From NCBI GenBank assembly GCA_029204225.1, contig MU832132.1, forward strand, positions 21,689 to 85,688: a stretch of DNA of 64,000 bases, in the 5' to 3' direction. The DNA is from Diphasiastrum complanatum (taxonomy: Eukaryota; Streptophyta; Lycopodiopsida; Lycopodiales; Lycopodiaceae). Positions 1,567-36,656 of the stretch are shown here, piece after piece (the first letter of the stretch is position 1; each line of letters begins with the position of its first letter). The notes under the pieces were generated by a model. It did no database searches and was not told where the DNA came from. It saw only the letters and a list, made by a program, of their open reading frames with translations. Position numbers and translations under genes: made by a program.

Positions 1567-1571
1567 CCTTG
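1567..1571. repeat. target-site duplication CCTTG (left)
   Basis: Five bases CCTTG flank the intact copia on the left and are repeated at 7886-7890. Five-base duplications are the normal footprint of copia integrase. Confidence 0.95.
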
Positions 1572-2433
1572 TGTTGAAAATTGTCACTTCTCACTTGACA
1601 TTGGTTCATGTAAATATTGATCAAACATTAGAATATGTTGATGATATGATTTCACACGTGTGGAGCATGTTCCCATGTGTGAAAGGATGTACTTTTCATG
1701 TTTGTATATATCCAAATTGATTTTGTATCATTCTAGTTAGTGTGAACATGAAATGACTAGTTTTTAGTCAAGTTGACTAGTCACCTACAAATTAGCTTTT
1801 CCTTGCATGTGCATGAGTAAATGCTCCCACATGGCAAGTGGATGTTCACATGTGTGTATAGAGTACTAGAAGATAAGAGTTGACCATTTTCCTTAGATCC
1901 TATTTTGTAGGGAATATTCCTATATTCTAGGAGACTAGCTTTTTGGATTTTAGTCATATTCTAGAAGGTCAACTATTGGATAAGGATCAAGGATGGATCA
2001 AATGGATAGATATGAGTGATGTGGCACTCTTCACACGTGTGAAGGCCTGCTGGACTGTACCAGACTCATGGATGTACTTGATCCATAAAAGGATCATCAT
2101 TTTGCTAAGAAAATTGATGAGACTTTTGCACTCTACACTTTTGTGAGATTTCTAGTCATTTGTCTTGTGATTTTTATGCATGATTGCTATCTAGTATCAT
2201 TGTACTTGTTGTTTCAGGTGCAGTCCGTACAGTGGACAGTACTCCACACGTGTGAAGCCGCTCTCACTAAAAAATGATGTGTTGATCCATTGCTCTTGCT
2301 TAAATCCAAGTGTAGTGAATCTAGATCAAGATCTAATGTGTAGAACTTGATAGATTCATTGATTAAGCAACCAATAACTCTCTATGATTGTAAAGTACAA
2401 TCATTATTGTCCTAAAAACTGTAAAATTTATCA
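1572..2433 (+). repeat. 5' LTR of the complete copia
   Basis: Begins TGTTGAAAATT and ends TTTATCA, matching 7024-7885. It has CACACGTGTG palindromes at 1653, 2032 and 2245 and a GTACAG motif near 2229. An apparent 67-codon frame at 1943-2146 is repeated exactly in the 3' LTR and is LTR sequence, not a gene. Confidence 0.97.
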
Positions 2434-2445
2434 TGGTATCAGAGC
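2434..2445 (+). other. primer binding site (initiator Met tRNA)
   Basis: TGGTATCAGAGC directly follows the LTR terminal CA. This is the usual copia site complementary to the 3' end of plant initiator methionine tRNA. Confidence 0.95.
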
Positions 2446-3029
2446 TAAGTAAGAGAGTGATCATTGAATCATAAATCTTGTAAAGATCATTGGCAAAATT
2501 TGTTTTTTGGCCAATACTAGTGAGGGCGAGTTCTTCTAGAGTGATAGCTTGTAATCATTTGGATCAAAACGACTTGGAGGCTGTGTATGTACTTTTCACA
2601 CGTGTGAAACCGTACAGCAACTTTCAATTCAAGTTACTTTGTGTTTTTTGGTCCCAAAATCACAATACTAGTTCATTTTTGGTGCTTTTTGAAGCATAGT
2701 ATTGATCTAGATTCATTCTAACTAATGCCTATGACCAAATAGTGTTTTGGATCATTGAAGCATTTCTTTTTAGAGTCTAAGATCAGATCTAAGAGGCTGA
2801 TTTGTTCAGATCCTTAGTTGAAGTGAAATCTCTAAGAAAAGTGTAAAGCAATTTTTTTTTGTGAGAGTGAAAGCTAGAAATTTTTGGTAAGATCTTTGAG
2901 TATCATTCAAGCTTGTGTGTTAGTTTGATAGAGACAAGCCTATAGGCATTCTAGTAAGCTTTAGGCCACTTCATAGATCTTTTAAAATTCAAAAATCTTT
3001 GTGATTTTTAAAAGAGCATTCATTCTAAA

Positions 3030-6000
3030 ATGTCATCCATGGGTGGATATTTGATGGAATCAAGTGAGAGACTCACTTCCACAAATTATTCCATTTGGAA
3101 AGTGAGAATGGAATCACTCCTAGTGATCCATGATCTATATGACATAGTTCAAGGAGTAGAGGAAGAGCCTCAAACTCCCCAAGAACAAGCCAAATACAAG
3201 AAGAGAGCAAGATTAGCTCTACATTGCATAAAGTTAAATGTATGCAATGACCTCTTGAAAGAGGTGTCTTCTTGTACCTCATCCAAAGAGGCTTGGGATT
3301 CATTAAAGAGCATTTATGAATCCAACAATACTTCAAGAATCCTCATGCTAAGAAATCAAGTTTTCCAAAGCATGAAAGGAAGTGGAGAGAGTGGACAAGA
3401 GTATGTTCTTAGGATCAAATCTCTTAACAAGGAGTTAAGTGCAATAGGAGAGAAGATCCAAGATCAAGAACTAGTACAAATCATTTTGAATGGTCTAAGT
3501 GATGAGTTTACCAACTTAGTCCAATCATTTGCCATTCAAGACTCTCTTCCATCCATTGAAAAGTTGCACAATGTTCTTGTGGCCGAGGAGGGTAGGCTTC
3601 TACACCTCAAGACAAGAATGGATAGCATGTCACTTAATGGAGGAGAGGAGAAAGCTAACTTTACATCTAAAGGCAAGAAAAAGCAAAATCCATTCAAGAA
3701 AAATCAAGGCAAGGAGGCCGAGATGAAGAATGGAGGATCTACCTCCAAAGGCAAAGTGAAGAACAAGGCAAAACTAAAGTGTTTCTTTTGTGGAAAGAAA
3801 GGACACTTTGCCTCAGAATGCTACTTGAAGAAGAATCAACAAGCCAAAGGAGATCAAGGGAACATTGCTCAAGAGGAAGAATATGAGGATGGATTCAACA
3901 CATCCTTAATGGTTGCATCTACACCAACTTCAAGTCAAGACACATGGTGGATAGATAGTGGGGCTAGTTCCCACATGTCCTTTAACAAGCATTATTTTTC
4001 TACTCTTCTATCTTGTAATGACTCTAAGAAGTCAATATACACTGCTAGTGATCAAGCATGCAAGATAGATGGCATAGGATCTATACCTCTTTGTTTAGGC
4101 ACATCTAAAAGGATAGATCTAGATAATGTTTTGTATGTTCCTACCATTTCAAGAAACTTGCTTAGTGTAGGACAATTAATGGACAATGGACTAGATGTAC
4201 ATTTCAAGAATGGAGTTTGTTCCATCTTGAAAAATGATAAGTGCATAGCTAGTGGCATTAAGCAAGGTAGACTTTTCAAGTTGGATGCTAATGTTGCAAG
4301 TGAAAGTGTGAACTTGGCTAGGGAGGAGCTAACTCAAGTGGAGCTTTGGCATAAGAGATTAGGCCATCCTAATCTTCAATCTATGGAGTCAATGGCAAGC
4401 AAGGAACTAGCTCTCGGCCTACCAAGAGCTTTCAAGAAGTGTGGAAAAATGTGTGAGGCATGTGGCCTTGCAAAGTCACACAAATCTTCTTACAAGAAAT
4501 CTTCATCAAGATCTCTCTCTCCCTTGGATCTCATACATTCTGATGTACATAGTTTTTCACATGCAAGTAATGGAGGTGCCTTGATGTATGTAACTTTTAT
4601 AGATGATTGTACTAGATTCACATGGATTGAGTTACTATCAAAGAAAAATCTTGTTTATGAAGCTTTCATTAAGTTCAAGTCTCTAGTAGAGAAACAACTT
4701 AGTACTTCTATCAAAGCACTAAGATGTGATAATGGAGGAGAGTACACCTCCAATAAAATGAAAGACTTTTGTGAGATCAATGGTATTAAGTTACAATACA
4801 CTTGTTCCTACACCCCTCAACAAAATGGGGTGGCCGAGAGGAAAAATAGGAGTCTATGTGAGTGTGCAAAGTCCTTGAGGCTTGATGCATCACTTCCCAT
4901 CTCATTTTGGGGAGAAGCCATAACATGTGCTAATTATTTGTGTAATAGACTTCCTAGTAGTGCTATAGATGGGATCTCACCTTATCAAGCCTTGTTTGAT
5001 AAGAAACCCAATGTAAAATATTTTAAGATCTTTGGATGTACTTGTTATGTACACATTCCTTTGGAGACTAGAAGGAAAGAAGATGCTACCTCCTTCAAAG
5101 GAATCTTTGTTGGCTATGGAGAAAATAGCAAGGGATATAGGATATATGATCCTACATCCAAGAAAGTAAAGGTAAGCAAGGATGTACTTTTTGATGAGTC
5201 ACAATTTGCTAAGAGCTTGTCAAATGGATCTAACCCATTGTGCATTGAAGATCTTGACAAATCCGAGGAGGATCTTGACAAACCCGAGGAGGATCATGAC
5301 AAACCCGAGGATGGAGATTTGGATCCAAGTCAAAAGGGGCCAAGAAGATCATCAAGGAGCAAGGCCGAGCCCTCAAGGCTTACCTATGTGGACAAGGGAA
5401 AGCAAAAGGAAGGCTCTACATCTTCTACCTCTTACTCTTTTTTAGCTACATTGATTGAAGAACCATCATCTTTTGAAGAAGCATGTAAATCTAAAGTTTG
5501 GAGAGATGCAATGCAAGTAGAGTATGATGCATTAGAAGAAAATCATACTTGGAATCTTGTAAATCTTCCAAGAGGAAAGAAACCACTTGCATGTAAGTGG
5601 ATTTATAGAATTAAGTACAATCAAGATGGATCTATTAGTAAATACAAAGCTAGGCTTGTTGCTAAGGGATTTCTTCAAATAAAAGGATTGGATTATGAAG
5701 AAACATTTGCACCTGTAGCTAAGCTTGTAACTATTAGATTAATCATTTGCATTGCTACTTTGTTCAAATGGGATCTCTACCAAATGGATGTGACAAATGC
5801 CTTCTTGAATGGCTTCTTAGAAGAGGAAATCTACATGATGCAACCCGAGGGCTTCATCAAGATTGGTGAGGAGCAAAAGGTGTGCTACTTAAGGAAGAGC
5901 CTATATGGCTTGAAGCAAGCACCTAGAGCTTGGTACTCTAGGTTGCATGATTTTCTCTATTCCCTTGGCTTTGTACTAAGTGCTTATGAACCTTCTTTAT

Positions 6001-7010
6001 ATTTCAAATGTAATGAAGGAAAGATCATCATTTTGGTTCTTTATGTTGATGACATCATTATGACAGGAAATGATGATGATGGCATAGGCAAAGTAAAAGT
6101 TGACTTATCTAGTGAGTTCAAGATGGTAGATCTAGGCTTCCTAAAGTTTATACTTGGGATAGAAGTGTCTAGAAGTAGCAATTGTACTTTCATAAGTCAA
6201 TCTAAGTATGCTACTTCCATTCTTGAAAGATTTGGTATGAAAGATTGTAAGGGGATTGACACCCCTATGGAGCATGTTGTGAAAGCAACTAATGAAGGTG
6301 ATGAAGCATCCTTTGAGGACATCACTCTCTTTAGGAAGCTTATAGGCTCTCTAATCTATTTAACCATCACTAGACCTGACTTAAGTTTTTGTGTAAGCAA
6401 GTTGAGTCAAAGTATGCAAGCTCCTTTAATTCATCATTGGAAAAGTGCCAAGAGAGTACTTAGATATGTTTCTAGTACTAGATTTTTTGGTATACTTTAT
6501 GAAGGATCTAACTTGCACTTGAGAGCCTACTCGGATTCAGATTTTGCAGGTGACAAGATGGATAGGAAGTCCATTAGTGCATTTGCAACATTTCTTTGTG
6601 GAGGAGTGATATCTTGGCTTTCCAAAAAGCAAGATACAATCTCACTATCTTCTTGTGAAGCCGAGTACAAGGCATTGACTTCAACAACCAAAGAGCTCTT
6701 ATGGCTAAGAAGACTCTTGATGGAACTACATGTGCTAGAGGCCGAGGAGATCCCTTACATATTTTGTGACAATCAAGCTTCTCAACAAATTGCTTCAAAT
6801 CCTATCTTCCATGCTAGAACAAAGCATATTGAGATAGCTCACCACTTTGTGAGGGAGAAGGTACAATCCAAGGAAGTGCAACTACATCATGTACCATCAT
6901 CCGAATGCATAGCTGATATCTTAACCAAACCATTGTCCAAAGATCCATTTTTTAAGTTAAGATATGCTCTTGGAATTGTAGATAGATGTACACTAGATTT
7001 GCCAAGTTAG
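3030..7010 (+). CDS. copia Gag-Pol polyprotein, 1326 aa, intact
   Basis: The polyprotein makes the capsid and all enzymes needed for copying and insertion. Gag of the UBN2 type covers roughly residues 1-230, followed by a CCHC zinc knuckle at 251-264 (CFFCGKKGHFASEC). The aspartic protease site is D309-S-G-A. Integrase has its zinc site at H441, H446, C475 and C478 and a catalytic triad D505, D567, E603 with 35 residues between the last two, the standard DD35E spacing. RVT_2 reverse transcriptase carries YVDD at 1005-1008. Copia RNase H follows (SDSDFAGD, SCEAEYKAL, CDNQ). Order protease-integrase-RT-RNase H is diagnostic of Ty1/copia. The ATG chosen opens the conserved MSSMGGYLMESSERL gag start, also present at 63287. 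There is no stop or frameshift. Size is normal for the family. Confidence 0.97.
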   Translation: MSSMGGYLMESSERLTSTNYSIWKVRMESLLVIHDLYDIVQGVEEEPQTPQEQAKYKKRARLALHCIKLNVCNDLLKEVSSCTSSKEAWDSLKSIYESNNTSRILMLRNQVFQSMKGSGESGQEYVLRIKSLNKELSAIGEKIQDQELVQIILNGLSDEFTNLVQSFAIQDSLPSIEKLHNVLVAEEGRLLHLKTRMDSMSLNGGEEKANFTSKGKKKQNPFKKNQGKEAEMKNGGSTSKGKVKNKAKLKCFFCGKKGHFASECYLKKNQQAKGDQGNIAQEEEYEDGFNTSLMVASTPTSSQDTWWIDSGASSHMSFNKHYFSTLLSCNDSKKSIYTASDQACKIDGIGSIPLCLGTSKRIDLDNVLYVPTISRNLLSVGQLMDNGLDVHFKNGVCSILKNDKCIASGIKQGRLFKLDANVASESVNLAREELTQVELWHKRLGHPNLQSMESMASKELALGLPRAFKKCGKMCEACGLAKSHKSSYKKSSSRSLSPLDLIHSDVHSFSHASNGGALMYVTFIDDCTRFTWIELLSKKNLVYEAFIKFKSLVEKQLSTSIKALRCDNGGEYTSNKMKDFCEINGIKLQYTCSYTPQQNGVAERKNRSLCECAKSLRLDASLPISFWGEAITCANYLCNRLPSSAIDGISPYQALFDKKPNVKYFKIFGCTCYVHIPLETRRKEDATSFKGIFVGYGENSKGYRIYDPTSKKVKVSKDVLFDESQFAKSLSNGSNPLCIEDLDKSEEDLDKPEEDHDKPEDGDLDPSQKGPRRSSRSKAEPSRLTYVDKGKQKEGSTSSTSYSFLATLIEEPSSFEEACKSKVWRDAMQVEYDALEENHTWNLVNLPRGKKPLACKWIYRIKYNQDGSISKYKARLVAKGFLQIKGLDYEETFAPVAKLVTIRLIICIATLFKWDLYQMDVTNAFLNGFLEEEIYMMQPEGFIKIGEEQKVCYLRKSLYGLKQAPRAWYSRLHDFLYSLGFVLSAYEPSLYFKCNEGKIIILVLYVDDIIMTGNDDDGIGKVKVDLSSEFKMVDLGFLKFILGIEVSRSSNCTFISQSKYATSILERFGMKDCKGIDTPMEHVVKATNEGDEASFEDITLFRKLIGSLIYLTITRPDLSFCVSKLSQSMQAPLIHHWKSAKRVLRYVSSTRFFGILYEGSNLHLRAYSDSDFAGDKMDRKSISAFATFLCGGVISWLSKKQDTISLSSCEAEYKALTSTTKELLWLRRLLMELHVLEAEEIPYIFCDNQASQQIASNPIFHARTKHIEIAHHFVREKVQSKEVQLHHVPSSECIADILTKPLSKDPFFKLRYALGIVDRCTLDLPS

Positions 7011-7023
7011 AAGTGAGGAGGAG
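7011..7023 (+). other. polypurine tract
   Basis: AAGTGAGGAGGAG lies between the gag-pol stop and the 3' LTR. Similar tracts precede the LTRs near 930, 43886 and 56302. Confidence 0.9.
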
Positions 7024-7885
7024 TGTTGAAAATTGTCACTTCTCACTTGACATTGGTTCATGTAAATATTGATCAAACATTAGAATATGTTGATGATATG
7101 ATTTCACACGTGTGGAGCATGTTCCCATGTGTGAAAGGATGTACTTTTCATGTTTGTATATATCCAAATTGATTTTGTATCATTCTAGTTAGTGTGAACA
7201 TGAAATGACTAGTTTTTAGTCAAGTTGACTAGTCACCTACAAATTAGCTTTTCCTTGCATGTGCATGAGTAAATGCTCCCACATGGCAAGTGGATGTTCA
7301 CATGTGTGTATAGAGTACTAGAAGATAAGAGTTGACCATTTTCCTTAGATCCTATTTTGTAGGGAATATTCCTATATTCTAGGAGACTAGCTTTTTGGAT
7401 TTTAGTCATATTCTAGAAGGTCAACTATTGGATAAGGATCAAGGATGGATCAAATGGATAGATATGAGTGATGTGGCACTCTTCACACGTGTGAAGGCCT
7501 GCTGGACTGTACCAGACTCATGGATGTACTTGATCCATAAAAGGATCATCATTTTGCTAAGAAAATTGATGAGACTTTTGCACTCTACACTTTTGTGAGA
7601 TTTCTAGTCATTTGTCTTGTGATTTTTATGCATGATTGCTATCTAGTATCATTGTACTTGTTGTTTCAGGTGCAGTCCGTACAGTGGACAGTACTCCACA
7701 CGTGTGAAGCCGCTCTCACTAAAAAATGATGTGTTGATCCATTGCTCTTGCTTAAATCCAAGTGTAGTGAATCTAGATCAAGATCTAATGTGTAGAACTT
7801 GATAGATTCATTGATTAAGCAACCAATAACTCTCTATGATTGTAAAGTACAATCATTATTGTCCTAAAAACTGTAAAATTTATCA
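7024..7885 (+). repeat. 3' LTR of the complete copia
   Basis: It is 862 bp and appears identical to 1572-2433. It is followed directly by the CCTTG duplication. Confidence 0.97.
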
Positions 7886-9422: not shown

Positions 9423-9460
9423 CATTAGAGAAAATATGGGCCCAAAGAGGGCCCTATAAG
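9423..9460 (+). repeat. left terminal inverted repeat
   Basis: The same terminus occurs on the minus strand from 59192 and, more weakly, from 53038, each time with unrelated flanking sequence outside CATTAG. The inner part TGGGCCC...TATAAG recurs near 40500 and could act as promoter (TGGGCC site II plus TATA-like box), which is inference. Confidence 0.75.
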
Positions 9461-9751
9461 AAATGCCATGTAGGAGAGAGAAAAATAACTATAAAGTAAT
9501 CATAATATCATTTTCTAACTTCTTTACGCATCTGCCCGCACTACTTTCCATGTAAATGAATGCACCTTAGTTTAGTCACATCAAACTTCACTGGTGTTTA
9601 ACTATAGTTAAAATATAATTTTTCAAAATGCTGAAATATTCTGAAAAAAATGTACGCCATCTCTATCTCCAGTAGAGTCGTTAGCACCATCTCCAACTTT
9701 GTTATTGTCATTGTGTTGTTTGTTACTATACTACTGTACTGATGACAAAGC

Positions 9752-12445
9752 TTTATCATCTTCATGTGGATCTGTCACCGGAATATGCTCCGCTCAGGAC
9801 GAGAAATTCAAAGCAACCCAAATTGTCAACTTCTAATATGGTCCGATACAGGGAGGAAAAGCTAAACATGTAGATTTATGGTCATCAGGAACATTGTATC
9901 CTATTGATCCATGTTCATTGCAGCATCCAGATTTTCATTCGGTGAGTCAGTTAATAATCTATATGTGTCATGGTAAAAATGGCCTTTTGGGTTACTGTGA
10001 GAATTTGATGCTCTATGGGAATGCACATTCAATGCAAAGAATACATTATTTGGAAGAGGAATCAAGGAAAATATCAAATGAGTGCGAAGAAAAATCTACA
10101 AAGATGAAAACTTGTTTGGATGAAAATGAGATGCTCAGATCAAGGAGGAGATCCAAAGGTTGAAATCTTTTTTGCATCATTATACAACTAGTAATGATGA
10201 GATAAAAATTGCATTTCAATCCATGCGTATCTCATATTTGTCTCTTGTTAAAAATATGGATGTGCTCAACAGAAAGGTCCGAAGCAACAAGAGGAAAAGA
10301 CTGGTAAACAAGGATATATGTGATCTATCATCTAGAGGAGGTCATAGAAAACGACGAATCCGTGCATTCAAGTAAGTTATAGCTTATTTGGTACTGAAAA
10401 TTGCTTGAACTTTTTGATTTATTTAAAATCACTAATTTTGTTATTTATTCATTTCAACTTTCTGTTGATTTGCTTATTATATACTACTGTGAATACTATG
10501 AGTGTCCTAATTTCTACTGACATTTTCATGAACATTATGTTTGCAATGCAGATCAACATTGGTTGTTGAAGACCATTTGGCTGATGAGATTTCAATTGGA
10601 AACTTACTAGGCTCTATCTTGACTTCTAAATCTATGAAATCAATGTTAAATAATAACAAAATGAAAAAGATCAAGGCTTAAGTTACTGATAGCATTATGG
10701 ATGAAGTTGGAAAAATATTAGACACTATATTGCTTCAGGGTGCATGTGACTTTTCTAGCATCAGTAGGGAAGCATATGCAACAATGTTTAAGATGATAAA
10801 GGAGGCATTTGCATAGGTAAATATTAAAAAGTTTCCAATCCCATGACCATTTTATCTTAAAAAAAAAAAGAGACATGTTAAACCATGGTATGCAGACAAT
10901 AGTTGGTAATCCATCTCATATCAATGAAGTGTATTGCTTGAAAGGAGAAATTCTAGCATATAACAATTCCAACAATTTATTTTTTTGACATTAATCAGTT
11001 ATTAACATTCATCATAAATTTTTACGGTATTACAAATGAGAATGTCAATAACAAGTTGATAGTTGTTCTCAAGTTAGATGAGTCTGAAATTATAAAAGGA
11101 CAAAAAATGGAAAGAGTCAGTCTCACAATCATGAATGGAGCACTTTCAAATTCACTGAAAGACTCAGAAGGCCTCAATTTCAGTGTTCAATTAGAAAATG
11201 ATATTTGGTGGTTGGCAGCATTTCAGGTATAGCAGTTCCTTTGCATAATAAATAGGGATAATCATTTGAATATGGATTTCATATCTAAAATCTTCTCTGT
11301 GTTAATATTATGAGGCTAATTACGTTTTTGTATTCTCTTATAGGTGCTGAAAGAAGACCATAACATTCTCTTATGGATATTTACTAGAACATCACATTCT
11401 GCCACCATAAAAAATCACATGAAGAGAGTTCCACTCAATATTCTTGGAATTGGCACTTTCAACATTGAATGGCATTTAGCAGGAGATATGAAGATATTAA
11501 TCTATGTTCAATGTATCTCATGGCGCTAACTCTAAACACCCTTGTTTGCACTGCATGAAAACAACAAAAGACATGACAAGGAGTACATGAATATCAAGAG
11601 ATCGAGAAGATCCTAATTGGAAACCTGTACTACCAATTCCTCTACGAAATGTTCATATCTGTACATTGCATGTGGAGGTGCGTATTATAGAAAAAATAAT
11701 ATATCTTCACATCTTGTTTGCATGGAATTCCGAGCAAGAGGCCTCTGCAAAGGAAGCTATTTCCAGATTAGAGGATGTGTTGTCCAAAGCAGGCTTACAT
11801 AAAGGCCACATTAAAATTAAAAAAGATGACAAGTTATCAGGTAAAACAGGAAATATTCCATGCAAGCCGAGCATTGGAGGATCTAAAGCTCGAAGATTTT
11901 TATCAAATTATTCTAGCAAACAATCTAAGGTTCAATACATTAGCAACTCAAGATTTCGAAGAAGAAGGTTCTACTCGTATTCACAAAGTAGAAGTTTGGA
12001 AAAAAGTTAGACAACATGGTACTTGAGAAAAGATAAATTTTCAAATACTGATGTTCAAATGATATAGAAAACAACCAATGAATTTGTGGATGCAGTTCAG
12101 AGTGCATGGGGTGTTGATCATATAACACATTATATGGTAAGATTTTGATTTTACACTACGATAGACAAATATGTGCAATTAAATTAGTTACTTTTGGTAC
12201 TGATTTAGATTATGTTTTTATGACATGCAACACATATTACAACATCATTCGACATTCTTTGCAAGAAATAGTGGAAGTCTTAGCATATGGTCATCGCAAA
12301 GAATGGAAAAATCTCATTGGCAAGCAAGAGCGTCATTTTATAAAATTACACAACATGGCGAGACTAGAACAAAAAACAGCTATATACTGCAGCTTTTCCA
12401 ATGGTTTTACAGAAGAATCCAAATTCGTCATAATACAAAATCGAT
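9752..12445 (+). pseudogene. DDE transposase-like spliced gene of the TIR element
   Basis: At least five exons can be traced with normal GT-AG borders: about 9752-10371, 10552-10816, about 10896-11226, 11344-12136 and about 12262-12445. The N-terminal part (YHLHVDLSPEY, NGLLGYCENL) recurs at 58.8 kb and 40.9 kb; exon 2 recurs at 57.1 kb. The C-terminal half has AGDMK, a CxxC site (PCLHCM), HICTLHVEVRIIEK, KPSIGGSKARRFL and MEKSHWQAR. Acidic residues at KLDE (11077), GD-K (11484) and MEKSH (12306) are candidates for a D-D-E triad; this is inference. Lesions are a frameshift near 9870, stops at 10681 and 10814, and a frameshift near 11505. I cannot name the superfamily. Confidence 0.6.
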
Positions 12446-12701
12446 GAATTATAAAAAATTTCAAAAAGCATGCAAATTTATACAAGCCAGTAGGCTATAG
12501 ACACACAGTAAAATTTTGTATATTAAATAAAAATATTCACAAAGTACAATTCGGCAATATCTAAAATACTTCCGATATTTTTTCCGATGAAAGTTGCAAC
12601 TTAGAATCATGCAACAATCTTCTTCTTTCGTATGGATACAATAGCTCATAGTTTTCATGCTTACTCAGATCAACGTAAGCAGCATACACTGCAAAATGAG
12701 A

Positions 12702-13770
12702 TCATCTGAGCATGAAATTCACTGGTCCATATCCTAAAATTTTAACCGCAATAGTTTTCTTTACAAAAATTATTTTATGCACCTTATTAAAATTATGTCC
12801 TCCAAGAAAATGAGACAGTGCCTTGATTGCCATAATCATAGTTTCACCATATTGATGAAACTTTGAATGGGCAACACTTATCTCATTATTCTTGAATGAC
12901 TTTAGATAGTGCCCGAGTGCATGATCTCTTGAAAATTTTACCGCAGAAGATCTCTGCCCTCCTCGACGAATTGCGAAATCATCAAGGAAAATTGTTTCCT
13001 GAAATGATAAAAAAAAAAGTAAGCTCCAATATATAATCTGACATAACAAATCTACTAGTACTTGATAGACAAAAACTTATGCATTCGGCTTTGTCTTTTC
13101 TGATTACTGTCTCTCCATCAATATTATGTCCACCTTTCGATGTCAATATTGTTGGTGAATAGGCAGTTGGCTGTGGAAAACCAAGTTGACTTTGGATTCT
13201 AAGAAACTCCTCCTCAGAAGGTAGATCATCTTCTTTGTTGCACATTTCCTCCACAACCATTTTCAAGCAATCTTTTCTTGAATAAAACTTATCATTGTGT
13301 ACATCGTCAACACCAGGGAGAAGATCATCAGCATCAAAATCAATTATATCCGAAAATTCATCAAGCTCTTTGCTCAAAATGCAAAGAGTCTCAGCTTCAA
13401 TGAAGTCAAAAAGATTCGATATATCCGATATTGTTAGAAAAGAATTATTATCTATAATATAAGTAGGCAAAGTGATCAAAGATTCATCAGAAAGAGAAAG
13501 GGTAGTGGGTGTTCTAGGGCCTATAAAAGTAGCCCTATTTCGAGCAGGATCAAAATCAGAACAATCATCTAAATGAACACTCGTGTCAATAAAAAAGATA
13601 TCTATATCTACAATCTTTGACTTTTCAGACTTTGTACCACTAGAAGAAGCTACTTCAGAAGTGGAGAGCACAGCCTTCGAATCGTCAAAAATATTTAACA
13701 ATGGGAAAAAGGGAAAAAACAAACTGAAAATCAACAAATCTACATTTTTTATTATGAATTGGGCACTCAC
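12702..13770 (-). CDS. ORF2 of the TIR element, unknown, at least two exons
   Basis: The upstream exon (about 13700-13097) encodes an acidic, serine-rich segment (VDIDIFFIDTSV, LPSEEEFLRIQSQLGF). A donor GTAATC near 13097 pairs with a pyrimidine-rich acceptor at about 13000, joining GGHNIDGET to a basic exon (ETIFLDDFAIRRGGQRSS, SRDHALGHYLKSF, HSKFHQYGETMIMAIKALSHFLG) that ends before 12702. The splice keeps frame, which supports a real gene. It converges on the transposase-like gene, with about 250 bp between them. No family recognised and no transmembrane segment needed. The true N terminus is uncertain because the start of the long frame looks intronic. Confidence 0.5.
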
Positions 13771-13799
13771 CTACAGACTTGAAATCATTATGTAACTTG

Positions 13800-14029
13800 G
13801 TAAACATTATGTCAAGCTTAGCTAGATATGCTTGTCGAGTGCCACCAGGTTCTGATAATGAATTATGTCTTTATTCTAAGACCTGAATAACGGAGTCCTG
13901 AGCAGGGACTTAAAGCTGAGATATATCTCAGAAAATGCCTCCACACCAGGGCCCTCAATTATAGAATGTAGAATAAAAAGAAAAGGAGAAAAAAGGGATT
14001 TGAAATAGTCCAACCTATCAGTAATACCA
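13800..14029. other. short intergenic stretch, nothing recognised
   Basis: AT-rich sequence between the start of ORF2 and the tandem duplication. No coding frame is supported. Confidence 0.4.
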
Positions 14030-15275
14030 ATTCACTAAAAAAAAATAAATTGGATTCAAAATTAGACATTTTAAACAAAATAAATAGAATTGAAGTTTCA
14101 AATATCACTCTCAGGCACAAACCCTAGGTCAGACAAGCACGTAAAGGCAACGTGCGCTCGAGAGAGATATTGGAAGCTGGAGTATCGGATCCGAGCGCAA
14201 GAACAATGAGCAGGAAAGAAAAGGGATACTAAATGCGCTTGAATGCGATACCGGAGGATGCAGTATCGGATCCAGGCGCATAATAGTCAACGAGACATAA
14301 TGAGAGCAAGTGGTGTGCTTGAAATCGATATTCGGCAAAGCAATCGTAAATTTGCGTGAAAATTCGAGCCGAAAAAGACCTATTTATATAAAAATTTTCG
14401 GACATGTGAAGGAGTGGCAAAGGAACATGTGTCGACATGTGATTGGCCAAAATAAATGCGCCGTACCTTGAATGATTGATTTGACATCTGTCACGTGCGA
14501 GAATGACATGCATCGATAAGGGATTCGCGCACGTGTCTCAGCCCACATGTCCCCCTAATTGGGTCATCAGTATCAGTACGGAATTTTCACGTGGTCTAGT
14601 CATCTGACGACACGTGGCTCGGCCATCTTTTCACACGTGCATTGCGAAAATTCATTAAAAAAAGAAAGCAAACTAGATTCGAAATTAGACATTTTAGTCA
14701 AAAATAACAAAACTAAAGTTCCAAATATCGCTCTCAAGCGCAAACCCCAGGTCCGACAAGCATGTCAAATCAACGTGCGCTCGAGAGAGATATTTGAAGT
14801 TGGAGTATCGGATCCGAGCGCAAGGACAACAAGCAGAAAAGAAAAGGGTTGCGAGACGCGCTCGAATGCGATACCGGACGATGCAGTATGTTATCCAGGC
14901 GCATAATAGCCAACGAGATGTAATGAGAGCAAGTGGTGCGCTTGAAATCAATATTCGACACAGCAATCGTGAATTTGCGTGAAAATACGAGCCCAAAAAC
15001 ACATATTTATAAAATTTTTTTTGCACGTGTGGAGAACTGGCGAAGGAACACGTGTCGACTTGTGATAGCCAAATTAAATGCGCCGTACCTAGTATGATTG
15101 ATCTGATATCTGTCATGTGCGAGAATGACATGCGTCGATTAGGGATTCGCACACTTGTCTCAGCCCACGTGGCCTCATAATTGGCTCATCATTGTCAGTA
15201 CGGACATTCCACGTGGTCTAATCATCTGACGACATGTGTCTTGGTCGTGTTTTCACACGTGCAAAAATTTCGTGT
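14030..15275 (+). repeat. two-copy tandem duplication, period about 623 bp
   Basis: The GATTC of GATTCAAAATTAGAC in copy 1 (14053) lines up with that of GATTCGAAATTAGAC in copy 2 (14676), and similarity continues to the end of each unit (TTTTCACACGTGCA near 14630 and 15250). Each unit contains several copies, in both orientations, of a degenerate motif like GCGCTTGAAAGCGATATT, plus many ACGTG cores. Further copies continue in the leader of the H3-like gene (15331, 15413, 15490). The block separates the divergent ORF2 and H3-like gene, so it is a candidate shared control region or protein-binding array. Confidence 0.75.
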
Positions 15276-15281
15276 ATATAA
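15275..15281 (+). promoter_or_regulatory. TATA box of the H3-like gene
   Basis: TATATAA sits at the end of the second repeat unit, about 310 bp upstream of the H3-like ATG, with a pyrimidine-rich leader between. Position and sequence suit a plant core promoter; there is no direct evidence of transcription. Confidence 0.5.
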
Positions 15282-15588
15282 GTCCTCAGAATTTTCATTT
15301 TTTTCACAAAATTTTCGCTTTTAGCTCCCGATATCGCTCTCAAGCACGCTCTTTCATCTTTCAAACTTCCGCCCCCTCACAATGCACTCGAGTCCGATAC
15401 TGCCTGCTGTGCAATATCGCTTTCAAGCACGCATCTCTTTTCTGCAAATAATCTCTGTAGATCTTGTGTTCAAAACCGATATTCAGTGCTGGTATCGATC
15501 TCAAGCGCCCTTTCATTGCAAAGTTTTTTGTTTTGATCCACTTTTGTTTTGTTCAAATTTATTTTTGTTAATTTTTTTTCTTCCGAGA

Positions 15589-16808
15589 ATGATGGCCAGG
15601 ACCAAATCCACCGCCCCTGCCATCACCACTGTACAGCCATCCCATTTCCATGTTCCCCCTGGTACTGGCCGTAAGCGTGGTAGGAAGCAAGTCTGGCTAA
15701 GGGAAATCAGAAAACTCCAGAGATCAACTGAATTGTTGATCCCTAGAGCTCCTTTCGGCCGATCTGTACGGAATGTCACTCTGTCACTTGGGCTGGATGT
15801 TCGTTTTGCCGTGACAGCCATGTAGGCCTTGTAGGGTGCTGCAGAAGATTTTCTGTTCCAGTTTTTTGAGGATACTTGTCTTTTGGCAGTGCATGGTAAG
15901 CGTGTCACCATCATGCCAAAGGATTTCATCATTCTCAAAAGCTTCGGGACAGATATTCTGTTTTGCATGTTGATAATGCCAGCACCTCCAGAGACCTGCC
16001 TCTGGATAGAACCAACGTGCCTACTACCTCTAGGAGGAAGAGAAAGCCTGCTGTCCCCAAGAAGGCTGAATCTCGAAGGCCAGCTGCTTCCCTTCCTCCT
16101 AGACATATCCCGGCCAAGAGACCCCGTGACTTCCGGAGCTCTGAGTCAGATGCTGGAGGACCCATGTATTCCTTTTTTAATTCAAATATATCGTCATAGC
16201 ATAAATTAAATTTCTATCATAATATTACTAATTTTTGTTCTATATATGCAGTGTGTACAGATGACACTTTTAGTTGTGCATGGTTCATCTTGTACAATAC
16301 GAAGCTATTTTTTGAATGGTATAATTTACAAATGGATGTAGATATTGAAAATATAATATTCTATTCATTTTGTAGTTCATTTCATTCTGATTCATATTTT
16401 ATTACTATCATTGTTTGTGATTTGCTGATTCTCGTGTTTTGTGATGACAGTTCACTCGAGCTGTATACTCCTGATGATGTATATAGATTTCGGCAAGAGT
16501 TGATCAGAACCTTTGCCCAGTACGGTGTAAGCATTGCACCTGCAATCGAGGGCCCTCAAAAGGAAGCTGCTCCTGTCTTAACAGCCTTTCAGGTTGTTCA
16601 GGTTGCAGATCTTATAAATTTATATGATAAAAAAGGAATAAAAGTCCTTCCTAATACAGAGGAAGGCAATTTTGTAGCAAATATTCCTCTTGCCTTAAAA
16701 GGCATTGAGGCCCTTCCCGAAACAAAGGAGAGCAAGATTATAGAAGGAGCTGTTGCTTTATCAGTTCCTAATACTGATATAGAAAATATAGAAAAATTGA
16801 TTGAATAG
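15589..16808 (+). pseudogene. histone H3-like gene with C-terminal extension
   Basis: Tandem ATGs (15589, 15592) open MARTKSTAP, an H3 N terminus. The fold follows: WLREIRKLQRSTELLIPRAPF (alpha-N and alpha-1), a loop 1 of canonical H3 length, GAAEDFLFQFFEDT (alpha-2) and AVHGKRVTIMPKDF (loop 2/alpha-3). LLIP and AAEDFL recall centromeric H3, but loop 1 is not lengthened, so a CENH3 call is not secure. TAG codons at 15823 and 15832 stand where H3 has glutamine-like positions. A one-base slip in an A run near 15938 moves the frame; the shifted frame continues about 75 residues rich in K, R and P. A possible donor near 16167 and acceptor at 16450 join in phase to a 119-codon exon (LELYTPDDVYRFRQEL...) of unknown type ending at 16808. 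It may be a captured host H3 or an element gene. Confidence 0.7.
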
Positions 16809-17001
16809 AGATCTATTTGTAAATAGAGAGACATAAAAAAAAAAGATACAATCATTTTACTTGTAAACAACTCGTTTATGGGTTTTTTTTATTGATATCA
16901 CAATAGATTCTTACAATCAGCTTGTGTCCATAGTCTAATAATGGAATGCAATTTTTCTATAATGATAAAAGACATTGACATGTATTTGATAATAGTGAAT
17001 T

Positions 17002-18334
17002 TCAATGTTCTTCCATAAGTTGGATTGCTTCGCCAATATCTCTGCATTTGATCTCGAGCTCATGTCTTTTACGTACCTGCATAAAACTAATACAAAGTTA
17101 GTTAGAATTATTACAGAGTTTGTATTAGAAAGTTTTGATTGAAACTATTCATAAAAGATCAAGTGTTTACAGTTACTTACGAGTTTACCATTGAAAATGA
17201 ATCTGAAGTCTAAAAGTACATCATCTTGTAGGAGTAATAGTTCCAGCCGGATGTAGTTTAGACTCCAATCTTCTTCCACCTCAACACATGTCAAAACGAC
17301 ATCATTGTATATAATTTCAATATTTTTTCGTTTTGAATGTCCATTGGCTTCCAAGTCTTGATCGAGTGGCACCCATTTACCTTTATTTTTTTTTCCATCT
17401 TTGATAATGGAAGCATAAGCTCAACATTTGATCTTTTGTCCCAGCCTTCATCCATAAGTTCAGATAATAAACTATCTGATAAATTTTTGCATACAAACAT
17501 CGTTGGGGTTTTGTGTACATTGACACTTGAAAAGAAATTCACAAATATATTCAAGGAAATAAACCAACTCAATCTGACTGATTTTGATCTCGTGCTCATT
17601 TTTAATGAATTTTTTACATCATTATATATCTTGCAACGAAATGATTCTGAAACTGTAGCATCTGGTGCAATCCATTCATCACTTTCAAAGCTAGGTAGTG
17701 GAATTGGTACTATTTGTCCAAAATTTTCTTTTGTATCAGGAATGTACACTGATTCATAAAATAAAAATTCCACCATCAACTAGATCTTCTGCAATTCTAC
17801 CTCGATATTGCAGCTGTCCAATATCAGTGTGAATAACATCTAAGACACCTGCTAAAGATCCACTGGGATCCCATTCATTTATGCTGGATGGATATAAATC
17901 TGCAAGAGAAAAATGATCAGATTGGCAAGTTTACTATTAGATATTTATGAATGACAAAAATCAAAGTATCAAAAATATCAATACTCACAGTTGTTTTTTT
18001 TGTGATCCTGACGGTTGAATCCTTGCACATTTATATCTGAATGCATATATACATGTTGGACTAGAATTTTAGAATTGGATTTTTCTCTTGATGATGTTTT
18101 GAAATCCAAAATTTTGGCCTTCCAATAAGATCGAAATGATAGTTTTGACCTTTTCCTTTTTTGAAATGCTCTTCTTGATGATAGATGCATCAAAACCCAA
18201 GAGTTTTTTGAATATTTTCTTGGCACCCATAATCCATTATCATCTGTCTCGTTGAATAGAAGCACAAAGTCGATTGAGGAGCACGGCTTCCTTGATGGCA
18301 TCATTCGTAATTTGCATGCAAAAATCTGAAACAA
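17002..18334 (-). pseudogene. ORF4 of the TIR element, unknown, three exons
   Basis: Exons 18334-17989, 17899-17181 and 17076-17002 join in phase through GT-AG introns and end in TGA at 17004-17002. The first exon is basic (RRAFQKRKRSKLSFRSYW). The second has WDPSGSLAGVLDVIHTDIGQ, KWVPLDQDLEANG and a stretch IRLELLLLQDD...DFRFIFNGKL whose pattern resembles a ubiquitin-like or similar small beta-grasp domain; that is weak inference. Two one-base frameshifts occur, both in homopolymers (a T run near 17768 and an A run near 17395). The protein starts about 450 bp inside the right end, mirroring the transposase-like gene on the left. Function unknown. Confidence 0.55.
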
Positions 18335-18745
18335 TGAACTATGAATCTTAAAATTTGCGTAGACAAAAAGCCATGAATCTGAGAAAAAGTGTTGGCAAAA
18401 ATTTGAAACACTGATCTATTTGGCGCCACAAATTAACTCTGGTTATCCCTGTTAACCATGGTTTGACAATGCATATACATTAATGGTACATCGATTTTCT
18501 CATCTCAACCATTTGTCATATTCATTTTTCAATATTTTTGGATCTCTTCGGGCTGTGATGAGATGGAAGGGCAGGCCTCATCAACCAATAGCATTTCCAC
18601 ATGCTGCCTGACGAAACAACAGTATATATAAAAAGTTTTTATTTTATTTATATTTGGAAAATTCTACGTTACGTAGAACCCCGAAGCTAAGGTTTCAATT
18701 GGTCCACATGGCAATGAAAATAAGAAAAAAAATAAAAAGCATCTT

Positions 18746-18783
18746 TATCAAAGGCCCTCATTGGGCTCTAAGTTTCTCTAATA
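18746..18783 (-). repeat. right terminal inverted repeat
   Basis: On the minus strand it reads TATTAGAGAAAC then AGAGCCCAATGAGGGCC, matching the left end at most of the first 32 positions. The copia frame resumes at 18784. Confidence 0.7.
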
Positions 18784-26399: not shown

Positions 26400-26842
26400 T
26401 GTAGGAATCCAGAATCAAGACTATTCATTAACACAAAGTATTCTCAAAGAGAAGAGAGAGATGGTTAGATGACCCTCTTGTAGAAACTTGTGGACAACCA
26501 ATATAAACAGTAGATTGCTTAACAAAAGTGTGTCTCATACAAATGAATGGCTACATATAAGTAGTCCAAGATGTCTATCTACCTTCATGACTGTTGGCTG
26601 TCCAATAACTTGACTAGTGGCTATCTAGCTACCATAAGTTACATAAAATAATTAAGTACCCCAAATAACAAGTTAGGTACTTGATTCACATGTATAGGCC
26701 CCTAGTGGGCCCACGAGTCCCTACAAGTTAGTTTCATACTAACTTGGGCCTAAAATATAAATGACCATGGTTACACAGATCTCGACCTTTTGGGTCATAG
26801 TAACCTATGGCTTCTACATCATTTACATTTATTATTCTAACG
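26400..26842 (-). repeat. 3' LTR of the minus-strand copia
   Basis: 443 bp; minus strand CGTTAGAATAATAAATG...GATTCCTACA. The first base of the canonical TGTTAG is mutated. It lacks the 87-bp tandem copy present in the 5' LTR. Confidence 0.92.
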
Positions 26843-26869
26843 CTCTCCTTAAATGAAAATGGCATGTAT

Positions 26870-29800
26870 TCAGTAGGTAAGAAAATCAGCATGTTGCTTC
26901 AAATTTAAAGCTTCACAAAGAGCTTTAAATCGAACTCTAGGCAATGCCTTAGTGAACACATCTGCAATATTATTCTTCGTGGGACAATATTCAAGCATGG
27001 TGTCGCCATTATGAAGCTTCTCCCGAACAAAGTGATAGTGGATCTCGATATGCTTTGTTCTTGCATGAAATACTGGATTTCGTGCAATGGCAATAGTACT
27101 TTGACTATCCATAAATAGGAGAGTAGCTGAGGGCTGGCCATGCTTCATATTGACAAGTAATTGTCTCAGCCATATACACTCCGTAGTGGCTGAAAACGTT
27201 GCTCTATTTTCCTGCTTCACTTGAGGATGTAGCACCGGTGGGCTGCTTCTTGCTTAACCAAGAAACTGCAAAATTTCCAATGAAAAAGCAATGACCACTA
27301 GTAGAGCGTCTAGTGTCTTGATCTCCACCCCAATCCGAGTCACAAAAACCAGCCAAACATGCATCATCACTAGAAGGATAAAACAGACCAAGTGTTTTAC
27401 TTACTTGAAGATATCAAAGGATCCTCTTCAATGCTTTCAATGTGATGTCAATGGAGCATGCATGAATTGACTCATGAGGGAAACACTATAAGATATGTTT
27501 GGTCTTGAGTTGCATAAGTAAATGAGACTTCCAACCGCTTGACAATATAGTGTAGTATCAAATGGTTCACCACCACTTTGATTACTTAACTTCAGGCCTG
27601 TCTCAATTGGTGTAGCAACCGGCTTGCAATCTTCCATTTTGAAACGCTTCAAAATCTGCTTAATATACCGTTGTTGGGTAATGAAGATACCAGCCTTTCC
27701 TTGCAAAAACTCAAGACCAAGGTAGAAATGCAATTGGCCTAAATCTGATGTATCATAAACTGAAGCAAGATCAGATTTTAAGGCTGCAATATATTGTTCA
27801 CTACTACCTGTAATGATAATATCATCAACATATAGCAAAATGATGATGATAAACTCAGATGTATGCATGACATAAAGCGTAGATTCACTAGGGCTGTTAG
27901 AAAACCCACAATCACAAAAGTATGTGTGTATCTTTTGTTACCACATCCTTGGGGCTTGTTTTAGTCCATAGAGAGCCTTCTTGAGAAGACACACTTTGTC
28001 TTCTTGACCTGCAACCAAAAAACTAGCAGGTTGCTGTAAACTTCCTCATTAAGATCACCATTGAGGAAGGCTGTCTTTATGTCAAGTTGGTGCATACGCC
28101 AACCATGATGGGCAACCAAAGCAGTGACTATCCTTACGGTAGTTATTCGTGTGGTAGGTGCAAAAGTTTCCTCATAATCAATGCCCTCCTTTTGCGCATA
28201 ACCTTTGGCAACAAGTCTTGCCTTGTACCTTTCAACAGTACCATCGGACTTGTACTTGATCTTATGAACCCATTTACGGCCAATTACTTTCTTTCCATGT
28301 GGAAGATCAACAAGAACCCATGTGTGGTTCTTTATGAGTGAGTCATACTCCTCTTTCATCGCGTCCTCCCAACATTTTACTCCTCTGGCCTGCTCATAAA
28401 AAACAGGTTCTATTGCACTATCCTCCATAGATGTAAGAGCAAAATCAGAAAAGTCAGCAAATTCTACTGATTTAGATGAGGCACGAGTCTTCCCTTCATA
28501 GAAGCAGTTCACTTTGCTGTCCTGCAAAGTCCCTTACTTTGATCAACGCTTTGCTGTCCAAAGTGATCTGAATTGTCAACACTTTGCTGTCCAAAGTGCT
28601 GTGAAATTGGACTATGTTGTCCAAAGTTTTCAACAAGCCATTCCTCTTCATATGTCTGCTCCTCTTGATGAATTATGGGCTGTTCGCTTGAAGAACCAGT
28701 GGGCTGTCCATTAGAGGATGATGGCAGTCCCTCCTCTTCAACATTAGATGGTGATACCAAATCTGGAAACACTTCAACATAGTCATCTTGGGGGATGTCC
28801 CCTTTCATGACATGAATGGGCGCAAGATCATAGGAGTTCTTCTCATCAAAATGAACATCACGACTCACTATGATTTTGTTAGTATCCACATTAAACAATC
28901 TATAGCCTTTACTTTCACTACTATAGCCCATAAAAATGCATTTTACTCCTTTATCATCTAGTTTGGATCTTAGCTTATCGAGAATAAATGCATAAGCCGT
29001 TCAACCAAAAGTGCGAAAGTGAGAAACCGATGGCTTCTTACCATACCAAACTTCATAAGGAGTCAAAATCTTCAAGGCTTTAGTCGGACACCGATTACTA
29101 ATGTATGCCGCCGTAATAATCGCTTCAGCCCAAAACTTGTGGGGAACGCCCTTTGCTTAAGCATGCAACGAGCCATCTCCATGATTGTGCAATTTTTTCT
29201 CTCGGCAACACCATTTTGTTGCGGTGTATAAGGTGTAGTCATTTGATGTAGAATGCCTTTGATTTGAAGAAACGTGTCGAACGTACTTTTAATGTATTCC
29301 TCTCCTCAGTCGGTACGTAGTATCTTCAAAGTATGCCCAAATTGATTTTCTATCATAGCTAGAAAATCTTTGAAGCATTGAAAAACTTCAGATTTTGCCT
29401 TCATAGAAAGATCCATGTAAACCTTGAATAATCAGCAATAAAAGTAACGAAGTACTTGCATTTACAAATGGATTCGGTCCTCATTGGACCACATACATCA
29501 CTATGAATTAAGGCAAACTTATCACCAACTTTGATAGTCCCATCAATAGGAAAAGGCTTCCGCTAAAACTTACCAAGTATGCATCCTTCGCATACATGTC
29601 CTTCGGGATGCTCCATATTTGGAATGCCTTCCAGCATGTTGAATTTCTTCAACATATTCAAACTTCCTAAATTTAGGTGCCCGTATCTCGCATGCCATAG
29701 TTTAGCCAACTCCAATACATGTGAATTAGTAACAACAAGACCAAAGGATGTCAAAGTTTTAGGTTCATAAATATCCAACAAAAACAAACCTCCTCACAAT

Positions 29801-31146
29801 GTTCCCGAAGCAACAATTAAAAGTGATCTCTTTGGGTCTTTTATAAGATATTTGTCTTCTTTAAATTCTACAATCAATCCTTGATTCATGATTGTAGAGA
29901 CCGAAATGGATTTTTCTTAATCTTAGGAACATAAAGTACATTTCGAATGTACTTTTCTTCTCTATTGGGAAGAATGAGTGGTATAGATCCAATGCCTTCA
30001 ATTGGATAGGAGGTGCTGTCAACACCTTGAACCTTGCTTCCATCTTTGATTTTCATAAGCTTTGTGAAGACGTCTCTATGGTGAGTCATATGGCGTGTAG
30101 CTCCGCTATCAATCACCCAATCAATGGAAGAAAAAACAGCAACCTGCAAAGCTGAAGTAGTGTTGTTTTCCACTGAAAAACTAGCAAGTCGAGAAGTGGA
30201 TTAGAAATAACATTGTTACTGACAAAAGCAAAATCACCATTGAAAGAATCATCCTCCTTTTGATGTTCTAATGAAATCATGGCTATATTTGTATCAATAC
30301 CTTTCTCTTTATCCTTAGTAAGCTTCTTCCTACATTCCTTTATGTGGTGCCCAGACTTTTCACAATAATGGCACTTACCCTTCTTTTTGGATCCTTGATC
30401 TTGGCCTTCCTTGGATTTTTGATCCTTGGAAGAAGAAGGCTTAACTTTCCACTTGCCCTTGCCTTTGCCTTTGGTGAAGAAAGCTTGATCTTCTTGTTCA
30501 CCAAAATTAATCCTTGTTTGCTCTTCTTGGAGAAGTAAGCCAACAAGCTCTTCAAAGTAGATTTGCTGTCCCCTAAGAGATATGCTTAAAGTAGACACAA
30601 ATGGAAGATAGGAATGAGGAAGTGAATTAAGAGTAATTGAAACAGATTGAGAGTTCGCGACAATTTCGTCAATGCTACGAAGCTCTTCCCGAAGATCCTT
30701 GATCTTCATTAAGTGATTTGAAAGCGTATCACCCTCTTGCATCTTCAATGTTGAGAGTTGATTACGTAGAAAAAGCACTTTCGCCGTATTCTTCACTTGG
30801 AACATCTGGCAAGTACTTCCCAAGCACTCTTGGAATTTTTGCATGATCGAATGTGAGGTAGGATTGATCTCTTCACGGATAGCACTATGACCGAATGTGC
30901 TTGTGTGTCACGTCGATCCCACTTCTTTTGTTCTTCGGAAGACACCTCCACATATGTTGAAGAAGTAGCTCTTGACGGTGTAGTAGGTGCCAAACTAGGT
31001 GGCCTCTCTTCATCACCACTTACAACTTCAAACAAACCTTTAGCAATAAGGAGGCTTTTGATCATGTAGCACCACAAAGAGAAATTAGTTCCATCCAACC
31101 TATCTTCATTGAACAAAGACGTTATAGATTCAGATTTTTTAGCCAT
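26870..31146 (-). pseudogene. copia Gag-Pol, frameshifted
   Basis: Right to left: gag from the ATG at 31146 (TSLFNEDRLDGTNFSLWCYM), shift near 30.82 kb, zinc knuckle CHYCEKSGHHIKEC, protease VIDSGATRHMTHH near 30.09 kb, pre-integrase WHARYGHLNLGSL near 29.7 kb, integrase with breaks between 29.5 and 29.0 kb, the GYSSESKGYRLFN segment, RVT_2 ([20 protein letters not shown]), YVDD at about 27.8 kb, a gap of RNase H, and the RNase H end (TECIWLRQLL, HIEIHYHFVREK). At least five separate frame breaks, so no functional polyprotein. Confidence 0.93.
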
Positions 31147-31767
31147 TTCTAAAAATTCAGCTAATAGTAGATGGAAAAAACATATTCCAGGCCAAAATCT
31201 ACTAACTAATCAGCAAGATCAAAGCTGAATTGATGAGCACTATAGATTACAATACACCACATGCAATAGCTCATTCACAAGAAGATATAGGTGGCTGTAT
31301 TATGCTACTAACTAGTATGCAGGCTTCCAATGAAGCCAAAACCACAACCAAAACTTTTGTGGTAAAATGGAGTGCACTCAATGTGCTAATGGAGCAGATG
31401 GTAAGACCTTCTTCCAGGCTCAAAAAGAGAAAAATTTCAGCCACTAAAAATGTGTCAAAAACACATTTGTCTTCAAGGTAGACGGGCGCCCTCCTCCAAG
31501 AAGAAAATCTAAAATTTGAAGCATGTAATCTGATTTCAATCACATGAAAACTAGTTGAGCATGGGCGCCCTACTATTGGCTCCCAAATGAGTGGAGGTTC
31601 CAAGCTTTTCCCTGCAATTTCCTGCACAAAAAACAAGGAGCCCAACAGTTCTCTCTCCACAAATTTTTTTTTTTTTTTGATTTTTATGAACCAAAAGAGG
31701 AGAAATGTGGCTGCCTATTGCGTGCCCTCCAGCAAGCAATCAATTTTGAAAAATGGCTCTGATACCA

Positions 31768-32296
31768 TGCAGGAATCCAGAATCAAGACTATTCATTAAC
31801 ACAAAGTATTCTCAAAGAGAAGAGAGAGATGGTTAGATGACCCTCTTGTAGAAACTTGTGGATAGCCAATATGAACAGTAGATTGCTTAATAGTATTCTC
31901 AAAGAGAAGAGAGAGATGGTTAGATGACCCTCTTGTAGAAACTTGTGGACAGGCAATATGAACAGTAGATTGCTTAACAAAGTGTGTCTCATACAAATGA
32001 ATGGCTACATCTAAGTAGTCCAAGATGGCTATCTACCTTCATGACTGTTGGCTATCCAATAGCTTGACTAATGGCTATCTAGCTACCATAAGTTACATAA
32101 AATAATTAAGTACCCCAAATAACAAGTTAGGTACTTAATTCACATGTATAGGCTCCTAGTGGACCCATGAGTCCCTACAAGTTAGTTTCATACTAACTTG
32201 GGTCTAAAATATGAATGACCATGGTTACACAGATCTCGACCTTTTGGGTCATAGTAACCTATGGATGGTACATCATTTACATTTATTATTCTAACA
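31768..32296 (-). repeat. 5' LTR of the minus-strand copia
   Basis: 529 bp; 86 bp longer than the other LTR because a unit with period 87 (starting AGTATTCTC at 31805 and again at 31892) is present twice. The leader between it and gag (31147-31754) has no gene. Confidence 0.93.
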
Positions 32297-35491: not shown

Positions 35492-35499
35492 TGGATGCT

Positions 35500-36592: not shown

Positions 36593-36656
36593 TTGGATGC
36601 ACTTTCACACACAGCAGAGGTAGAGAAAGGAGTCTCAAAACATATGGATAAAATGC

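Follow-up and report, generated by a model that had tools for sequence, protein, structure and literature searches.

We analyzed a 64,000-nucleotide stretch of Diphasiastrum complanatum DNA (contig MU832132.1, positions 21,689 to 85,688 of the forward strand; called the window here), in which positions 9423-18783 form an inserted block that adds 9,361 bp to its site. The block has the ends of a terminal inverted repeat (TIR) element and carries four genes, one of them transposase-like and another that is, judged by its sequence, a relative of histone H3. It interrupts a minus-strand reading frame of copia type, which the original prediction had described as exactly restored upon removal of the block. 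When the flanks were joined in a script, the copia frame read ...EEILVARGNR on one side of the join and QGRLFKIDTFV... on the other, and from LSTNRKAR... through ARGNR and on to QGRLFKIDTFV its alignment with the copia polyprotein found elsewhere in the window was ungapped; across the join, 48 bases matched 48 bases at 81% (E value of 6.5e-07). Restoration thus holds through the join itself, while beyond FKIDTFV the alignment is weak and needs 28 gaps, so that the left flank backs the join over about 33 bp only, and the copia frame of the right flank contains one stop. The block was inserted into copia as a single unit. Its features are listed below in order.

9423..9453, plus strand: left terminus, beginning CATTAGAGAAAATATGGGCCC..., one arm of inverted repeat I2; recurs at 59192 (minus strand) and more weakly at 26140 and about 40480
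9742..12143 (approximate), plus strand: gene 1, transposase-like and broken, recognized from its copies, purifying selection and a motif order read by eye
12700..13870, minus strand: gene 2, acidic, with no named homologue; open frames, the main open piece at 12982-13770
14029..15263, no strand: tandem repeat of two units (14029-14641 and 14649-15263), about 615 bp each, 84% identical, rich in ACGTG and CpG
14103..15508, no strand: motif array, 17 sites of 16 bp each (consensus about TATCGNTYTCRAGCRC) whose orientation alternates strictly
15592..16165, plus strand: gene 3 exon 1, with the H3-like part at 15592-15927 followed by a basic C-terminal extension in another frame
16451..16808, plus strand: second exon of gene 3, in phase with the first across a GT-AG intron at 16166-16450
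17004..18304, minus strand: gene 4, exons 18304-17989, 17899-17181 and 17076 to about 17004
18753..18783, minus strand: right terminus, reading TATTAGAGAAACTTAGAGCCC... inward, the other arm of inverted repeat I2

The terminal arms (9424-9453 and 18753-18782) are 30 nucleotides long and 83% complementary. Their length alone is no proof, because unrelated inverted repeats of similar length occur by chance in the region (for example, I3, with 31 nucleotides and 81%). The arms are significant because the break in copia fixes both positions independently, and the chance of at least 25 of 30 matches at two independently fixed positions is 4.5e-10 (under a binomial model that assumes matches at a rate of 0.28). 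The predicted inverted termini stand at borders that were set without reference to them. The left end starts with CA and the right end finishes with TA, one transition away from a CA...TG scheme. By eye, no target site duplication (TSD) could be placed at the borders, where the joined copia sequence is ungapped. Spy transposons, which belong to the PIF/Harbinger-ISL2EU-Spy group and have a different transposase, are also TIR elements without a TSD, and the element resembles them in this respect. A search of the window for the right terminus, considering the six best places on each strand, returned only the two left ends (9424 and 59191) within 11 mismatches of 30 and no second right end.

In total, the window holds four left ends of the family, two of them weak, and one right end. 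We numbered the copies as copy 1 (9423-18783), copy 2 (59192, minus strand), copy 3 (about 26140) and copy 4 (about 40480). The recurrence of the terminus at 59192 was confirmed over 190 bp at 73% identity on the minus strand. The left end of copy 3 matches over 46 bp (80%, E value of 0.001) at a place where a copia match stops at 26139; a search for the point where the copia frame resumes and for a right terminus of this copy found neither. The left end of copy 4 is degraded, with 30 bp at 83% and an E value of 1.8 when taken alone. Copies of gene 1 lie at 56991-58880, partly inverted, after the left end at 59192, and at 40891-41690, after the one near 40480, in agreement with the predicted recurrence of the coding part at 40.5 kb; gene 1 thus adjoins the left end in three copies. 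Within copy 2, the inverted gene 1 piece is framed by an inverted pair of 89% identity (56302-56815 and 57481-58013), and near the left end at 26140 lies a copia element (26437-32295) with long terminal repeat-like 405-bp repeats (26437-26841 and 31892-32295, 95.6%).

The region of genes 2 to 4, searched alone, had no second copy in the window (best tblastx E value of 0.41). The comparison of the whole element with the window by tblastx gave 83 rows, and of those beyond the first 60, 16 extend past element base 2700; these are short pieces that owe their rank to statistics summed over chains of gene 1. Genes 2 to 4 consequently follow one of the four left ends, that of copy 1, while the other three copies are truncated or interrupted. 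A TIR element with transposase-like and H3-like genes inside its borders is supported; a family with four genes is no more than a possibility, as genes 2 to 4 occur once in the window. Copies lacking these genes had been named as a possible refutation; all three of the other left ends lack them, but in their truncated or interrupted state they do not refute a four-gene element. The single occurrence, together with left ends that lack a partner right end in the window, could also mean that the ends of a short element came to frame unrelated host genes through aberrant transposition and that genes 2 to 4 were never members of the family. We regard such an accidental composite as quite improbable, since the precise single insertion into copia shows that the entire block was transposed together on at least one occasion, and three copies have gene 1 beside their left end.

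Gene 1 is damaged by in-frame stops and frameshifts. Between copies 1 and 2, the proportions of synonymous and nonsynonymous differences in an exon of gene 1 (pS and pN) are 0.50 and 0.11; for the C-terminal piece, the comparison of copy 1 with copy 4 gives a pS of 0.84 and a pN of 0.20, with stop codons excluded in both cases. The gene is under purifying selection: pN is far below pS between the copies, and gene 1 was therefore once a protein under selection. A candidate D (KLDES) was found at 11077, a GDMK from 11482 (more generally, GD(L/M)K), a C(2)C (PCLHC) at 11543-11554 and an H(4)H (HICTLH) at 11654-11671; copy 4 has Ser in place of the first Cys. Both D residues, the C(2)C and the H(4)H were read by eye across a frameshift, and the final E of the reported order was not among the features read. 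The order D, D, C(2)C, H(3-4)H, E has been reported for CMCT (CACTA-Mirage-Chapaev-Transib) transposases, whose elements create TSDs of 2 to 5 bp (PMC12730594). As that paper describes them, CMCT elements are like ours in the order D ... C(2)C ... H(4)H and in a left end starting with CA, and unlike it in their TSD and in a right end that finishes with TG rather than TA. The motif order suggests that gene 1 encoded a transposase of the CMCT kind. Because gene 1 had no Pfam match above the cut-off and its composite had no match in PDB, the transposase class is drawn from the motif only; a Pfam match of one gene 1 piece to Herpes_LAMP2 (E value of 0.0059) was below the cut-off and was set aside. 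Nine stretches of viral contigs matched the gene 1 piece of copy 4 by pattern, and tblastn gave no relatives among them.

The histone H3-like gene announced by the original prediction was borne out. Both halves of gene 3 matched Pfam Histone (PF00125) above the cut-off (E values of 7.8e-09 and 2.7e-07), and the best PDB match was histone H3.1 (E value of 6.6e-22), with residues 33-111 aligned and 46 of 79 fold residues identical. In the sequence of its fold, gene 3 resembles H3.1/H3.3 and CENH3, and it differs from them at both ends. The tail opens MARTKSTAPAITTVQPSHFHVPPGTGRKRGRK, retaining ARTK and lacking the ARKS motif of K9/K27; counting the Met, residues 5 to 28 are without an intervening lysine. 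At the C terminus, the fold is followed by a basic extension and then by exon 2. Two in-frame TAG codons interrupt the gene, the second in place of a conserved Gln, and the frame shifts after MPKD, so that this copy is dead. The AlphaFold model of the protein was poor (pLDDT of 40.9). Pattern matches to the H3-like protein were found in 29 stretches of viral contigs, for which tblastn gave no relatives. We also considered whether a CENH3 gene had been captured. Against rice CENH3, the fold was 45/79 identical, and there are CENH3-like touches in IPxAPF (here IPRAPF), AAEDFL and PKDF. Bit scores were 88.6 for H3.1 and 70.1, 74.3 and 80.5 for two CENH3 sequences and CENP-A, values that are not strictly comparable because the latter sequences comprised the fold part only. 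Loop 1 has the length of that in H3, with no gap there against H3 and a gap of 1 to 2 residues against the CENH3 and CENP-A sequences. We rejected the capture of CENH3 despite the near-equal identity, as loop 1 is not of the longer CENH3 kind.

Upstream of gene 3, in the interval that separates it from the divergent gene 2, the two tandem units are followed by a third, partial unit that extends to the start codon of the H3-like gene. The 16-bp motif runs +,-,+,-,+,- in each of the two full units and alternates throughout the array, with distances between motif starts of 51/29/52/29/51 in both units and 52/31/51/27 in the partial one. Fifteen of the 17 sites were found by mismatch count, and 11 had at most 3 mismatches, whereas 100 mononucleotide shuffles averaged 0.01 such sites (the consensus itself came from this region); the whole window gave 26 sites by this count, 11 of them outside the array with 3 to 5 mismatches. 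The remaining two sites, 14887 and 15466, were added from a matrix scan for their expected spacing more than for their scores (15.8 and 12.4, against 17.4 for the best of one shuffle and 14.4 for an outside site at 27057). When sub-units were compared, excluding the pairs 622/623 bp apart, motifs were 50 to 94% identical and spacers 8 to 46%; thus, motif and spacing were kept while the rest drifted. The region of the array also has 23 overlapping matches to ACGTG words, each CACGTG being counted twice, versus 2.3 in shuffles; these correspond to 13 distinct ACGTG-type sites, of which 10 are CACGTG. Apart from the 16-bp motif, 14029-15590 (2.4% of the window) holds 10 of the window's 36 CACGTG words, which we take to be possible bZIP/bHLH sites.

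The array could belong to a separate CACTA-type element, nested with the H3-like gene inside an element of genes 1, 2 and 4, with the motifs as its subterminal repeats. CACTA elements commonly carry arrays of subterminal motifs, and there is a CACTA at 14033 and a TAGTG at 16991-16995, with AATT seen by eye on both sides, in addition to an inverted repeat (I20, 14029-14050 and 16980-17001, 77%). However, inverted repeats of this quality are frequent by chance in the region, the two ends are hardly alike beyond CACTA, a 3-bp TSD does not fit (ATT/AAT), and close to the right end the scores of motif sites stay within noise. We consider nesting very unlikely.

The array region differs in composition from the rest of the element. 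Across 254 overlapping 500-bp bins, the median CpG observed/expected ratio of the window was 0.28, and only five bins exceeded 1.0, all of them within 14001-15500 (starts 14001-15001). In 250-bp bins, 14151-15650 had a GC content of 0.41 to 0.48 and a CpG ratio of 0.72 to 1.7, and the H3 exon had a GC content of 0.49 to 0.52; the other bins of the element ranged from 0.26 to 0.40 in GC and from 0 to 0.74 in CpG, except those at 12401 (1.25) and 12901 (0.95). Between the repeat units, 50 of 75 CpG counts were retained, a share like that of the other dinucleotides, which range from 0.59 to 0.78. The array region has probably been free of methylation in the germ line ever since its units duplicated, because methylated CpG should decay faster. 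The CpG may have been kept within the transposon itself or, prior to capture, in the promoter of a host gene; either fits.

The latter origin would make the element a case of transduplication, in which a TIR element took up a host gene for an H3 variant along with its unmethylated, motif-rich promoter, and the histone, without a role in transposition, decayed later. We hold this as a possible explanation with somewhat less than an even chance, and it accounts for the step in GC and CpG at 14151-15650 and the H3 exon just as well as the reading that we favor below; we give the two much the same likelihood. The two in-frame stops and the frameshift fall within the H3 domain or at its end, as would be expected of a decaying passenger, and the window contains a second likely capture, with carbonic anhydrase exons between long inverted repeats. 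Set against this, the tail and C terminus are so far from canonical H3 that the source would itself have been an unusual variant, and a strict motif geometry with unconserved spacers is unusual for a histone promoter. Gene capture by plant TIR elements is well documented, and Pack-type elements resemble ours in having gene sequence between TIRs (PMC13317346). The element here differs from them in its transposase-like gene under selection and its motif array. If gene 3 is a captured host gene, this would be the usual Pack-type case with an unusual passenger.

The reading that we favor, with a probability of roughly 0.35, is a decayed large plant cut-and-paste transposon, CMCT-like, with an H3-based anti-silencing module. 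Gene 1 would be the transposase, of the CMCT kind, and genes 2 to 4 and the motif array would be accessory. The element may once have used its own histone against silencing, and it would work like a VANDAL element of Arabidopsis. The product of gene 2 or gene 4 is a candidate for binding the 16-bp array; the bound protein would keep the divergent control region of genes 2 and 3 free of methylation, and the H3-like protein would be placed in the chromatin of the element at this control region. Unable to bear the K9/K27 silencing marks in the normal ARKS setting, it would allow transcription of the element to persist. The transposase class, the protein binding to the array and the role of the histone are inferences here.

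VANDALs are Mutator-like elements with 9-bp TSDs and are not known to carry a histone gene. As described in PMC5735166 and PMC10398659, VANDAL21 and other VANDALs are like the element here in combining a transposase with accessory genes and in having noncoding tandem repeats packed with one short motif, and VANC21 binds such motifs and removes methylation. A further likeness is the avoidance of methylation, which we deduce here from CpG retention. The array suggests a shared logic, but the motif of VANC21 is the 9-bp YAGTATTAY, whereas the motif here has 16 bp, bears CpG and alternates in orientation. Fungal DNA transposons carry TET/JBP enzymes that have been proposed to aid escape from methylation (PMC12730594). 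These, as presented there, are similar in that an accessory methylation or chromatin gene is proposed to act against silencing, and they differ in being fungal and using a methylcytosine-oxidizing enzyme, where we find a histone in a plant. A histone unable to carry K9/K27 marks in the usual setting would be a natural partner for the array.

Several observations weigh against the H3-based module. Genes 2 to 4 and the array occur only once in the window, and genes 1, 3 and 4 are broken, which excludes function of the present copy. The TSD of 2 to 5 bp expected of a CMCT element, as reported in PMC12730594, is not visible. The block rich in GC and CpG, like the GC-rich H3 exon, contrasts with the remaining sequence in the way expected of a promoter and gene captured from the host. 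Counted without the Met, the tail does have a lysine at 27, in an RKRG setting. Additionally, genes 2 and 4 show no Pfam resemblance above the cut-off, and their PDB chains are weak and chance-like. A more far-reaching version, a TSD-less plant transposon lineage with its own ARKS-stripped H3 variant and an array-addressed anti-silencing nucleosome system, is unlikely in our view. The transposon countermeasures treated in the cited papers (VANC and TET/JBP) target DNA methylation (PMC5735166, PMC10398659, and PMC12730594). If the favored reading is true, a transposon that brings an unmarkable histone would represent a different attack on host chromatin defense, and escape from silencing by nucleosome swapping would become a directly testable question, with the alternating array as a concrete candidate binding site. 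Among the literature matches listed, the titles and abstract openings contained no description of a transposon-encoded histone, which is no proof of absence.

The four genes had been predicted to alternate in orientation, and the open pieces and the introns of genes 3 and 4 agree with +, -, +, -. For gene 2, nothing in Pfam exceeded the cut-off, and a PDB search up to an E value of 10 gave six chains; five were SAKe proteins, which are designed, aligned along roughly 26 residues (best E value of 0.00014). We took these matches as chance because they are short and mostly to designed proteins. Gene 4 has introns at 17988-17900 and 17180-17077, and in its exon 2 the frame is lost and then regained, so the gene is broken here. 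It likewise gave nothing above the Pfam cut-off. A ubiquitin-like fold seen by eye at its end was dropped, given the lack of a Pfam match, a weak PDB match to Chk1 (E value of 0.23) and a model pLDDT of 48.7.

Elsewhere in the window, carbonic anhydrase exons on the minus strand at 34483-34743 (Pfam Pro_CA, E value of 2.7e-10) and 34123-34296 (Pro_CA, E value of 3.4e-05, just under the cut-off) are flanked by two inverted repeats, 32483-33524/36715-37768 and 33503-34149/36036-36678, both 96.6% identical. Copia sequence resumes at 37771, beyond this block, and 32483-37768 appears to be a further element that captured a host gene. An open copia polyprotein of 1332 amino acids, with gag, integrase and reverse transcriptase matches, lies at 3012-7010 and is bracketed by 863-bp repeats (1571-2433 and 7023-7885). 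These repeats are 100% identical, and the copia element at 1571-7885 is therefore a young insertion; its CpG observed/expected ratio is 0.09.

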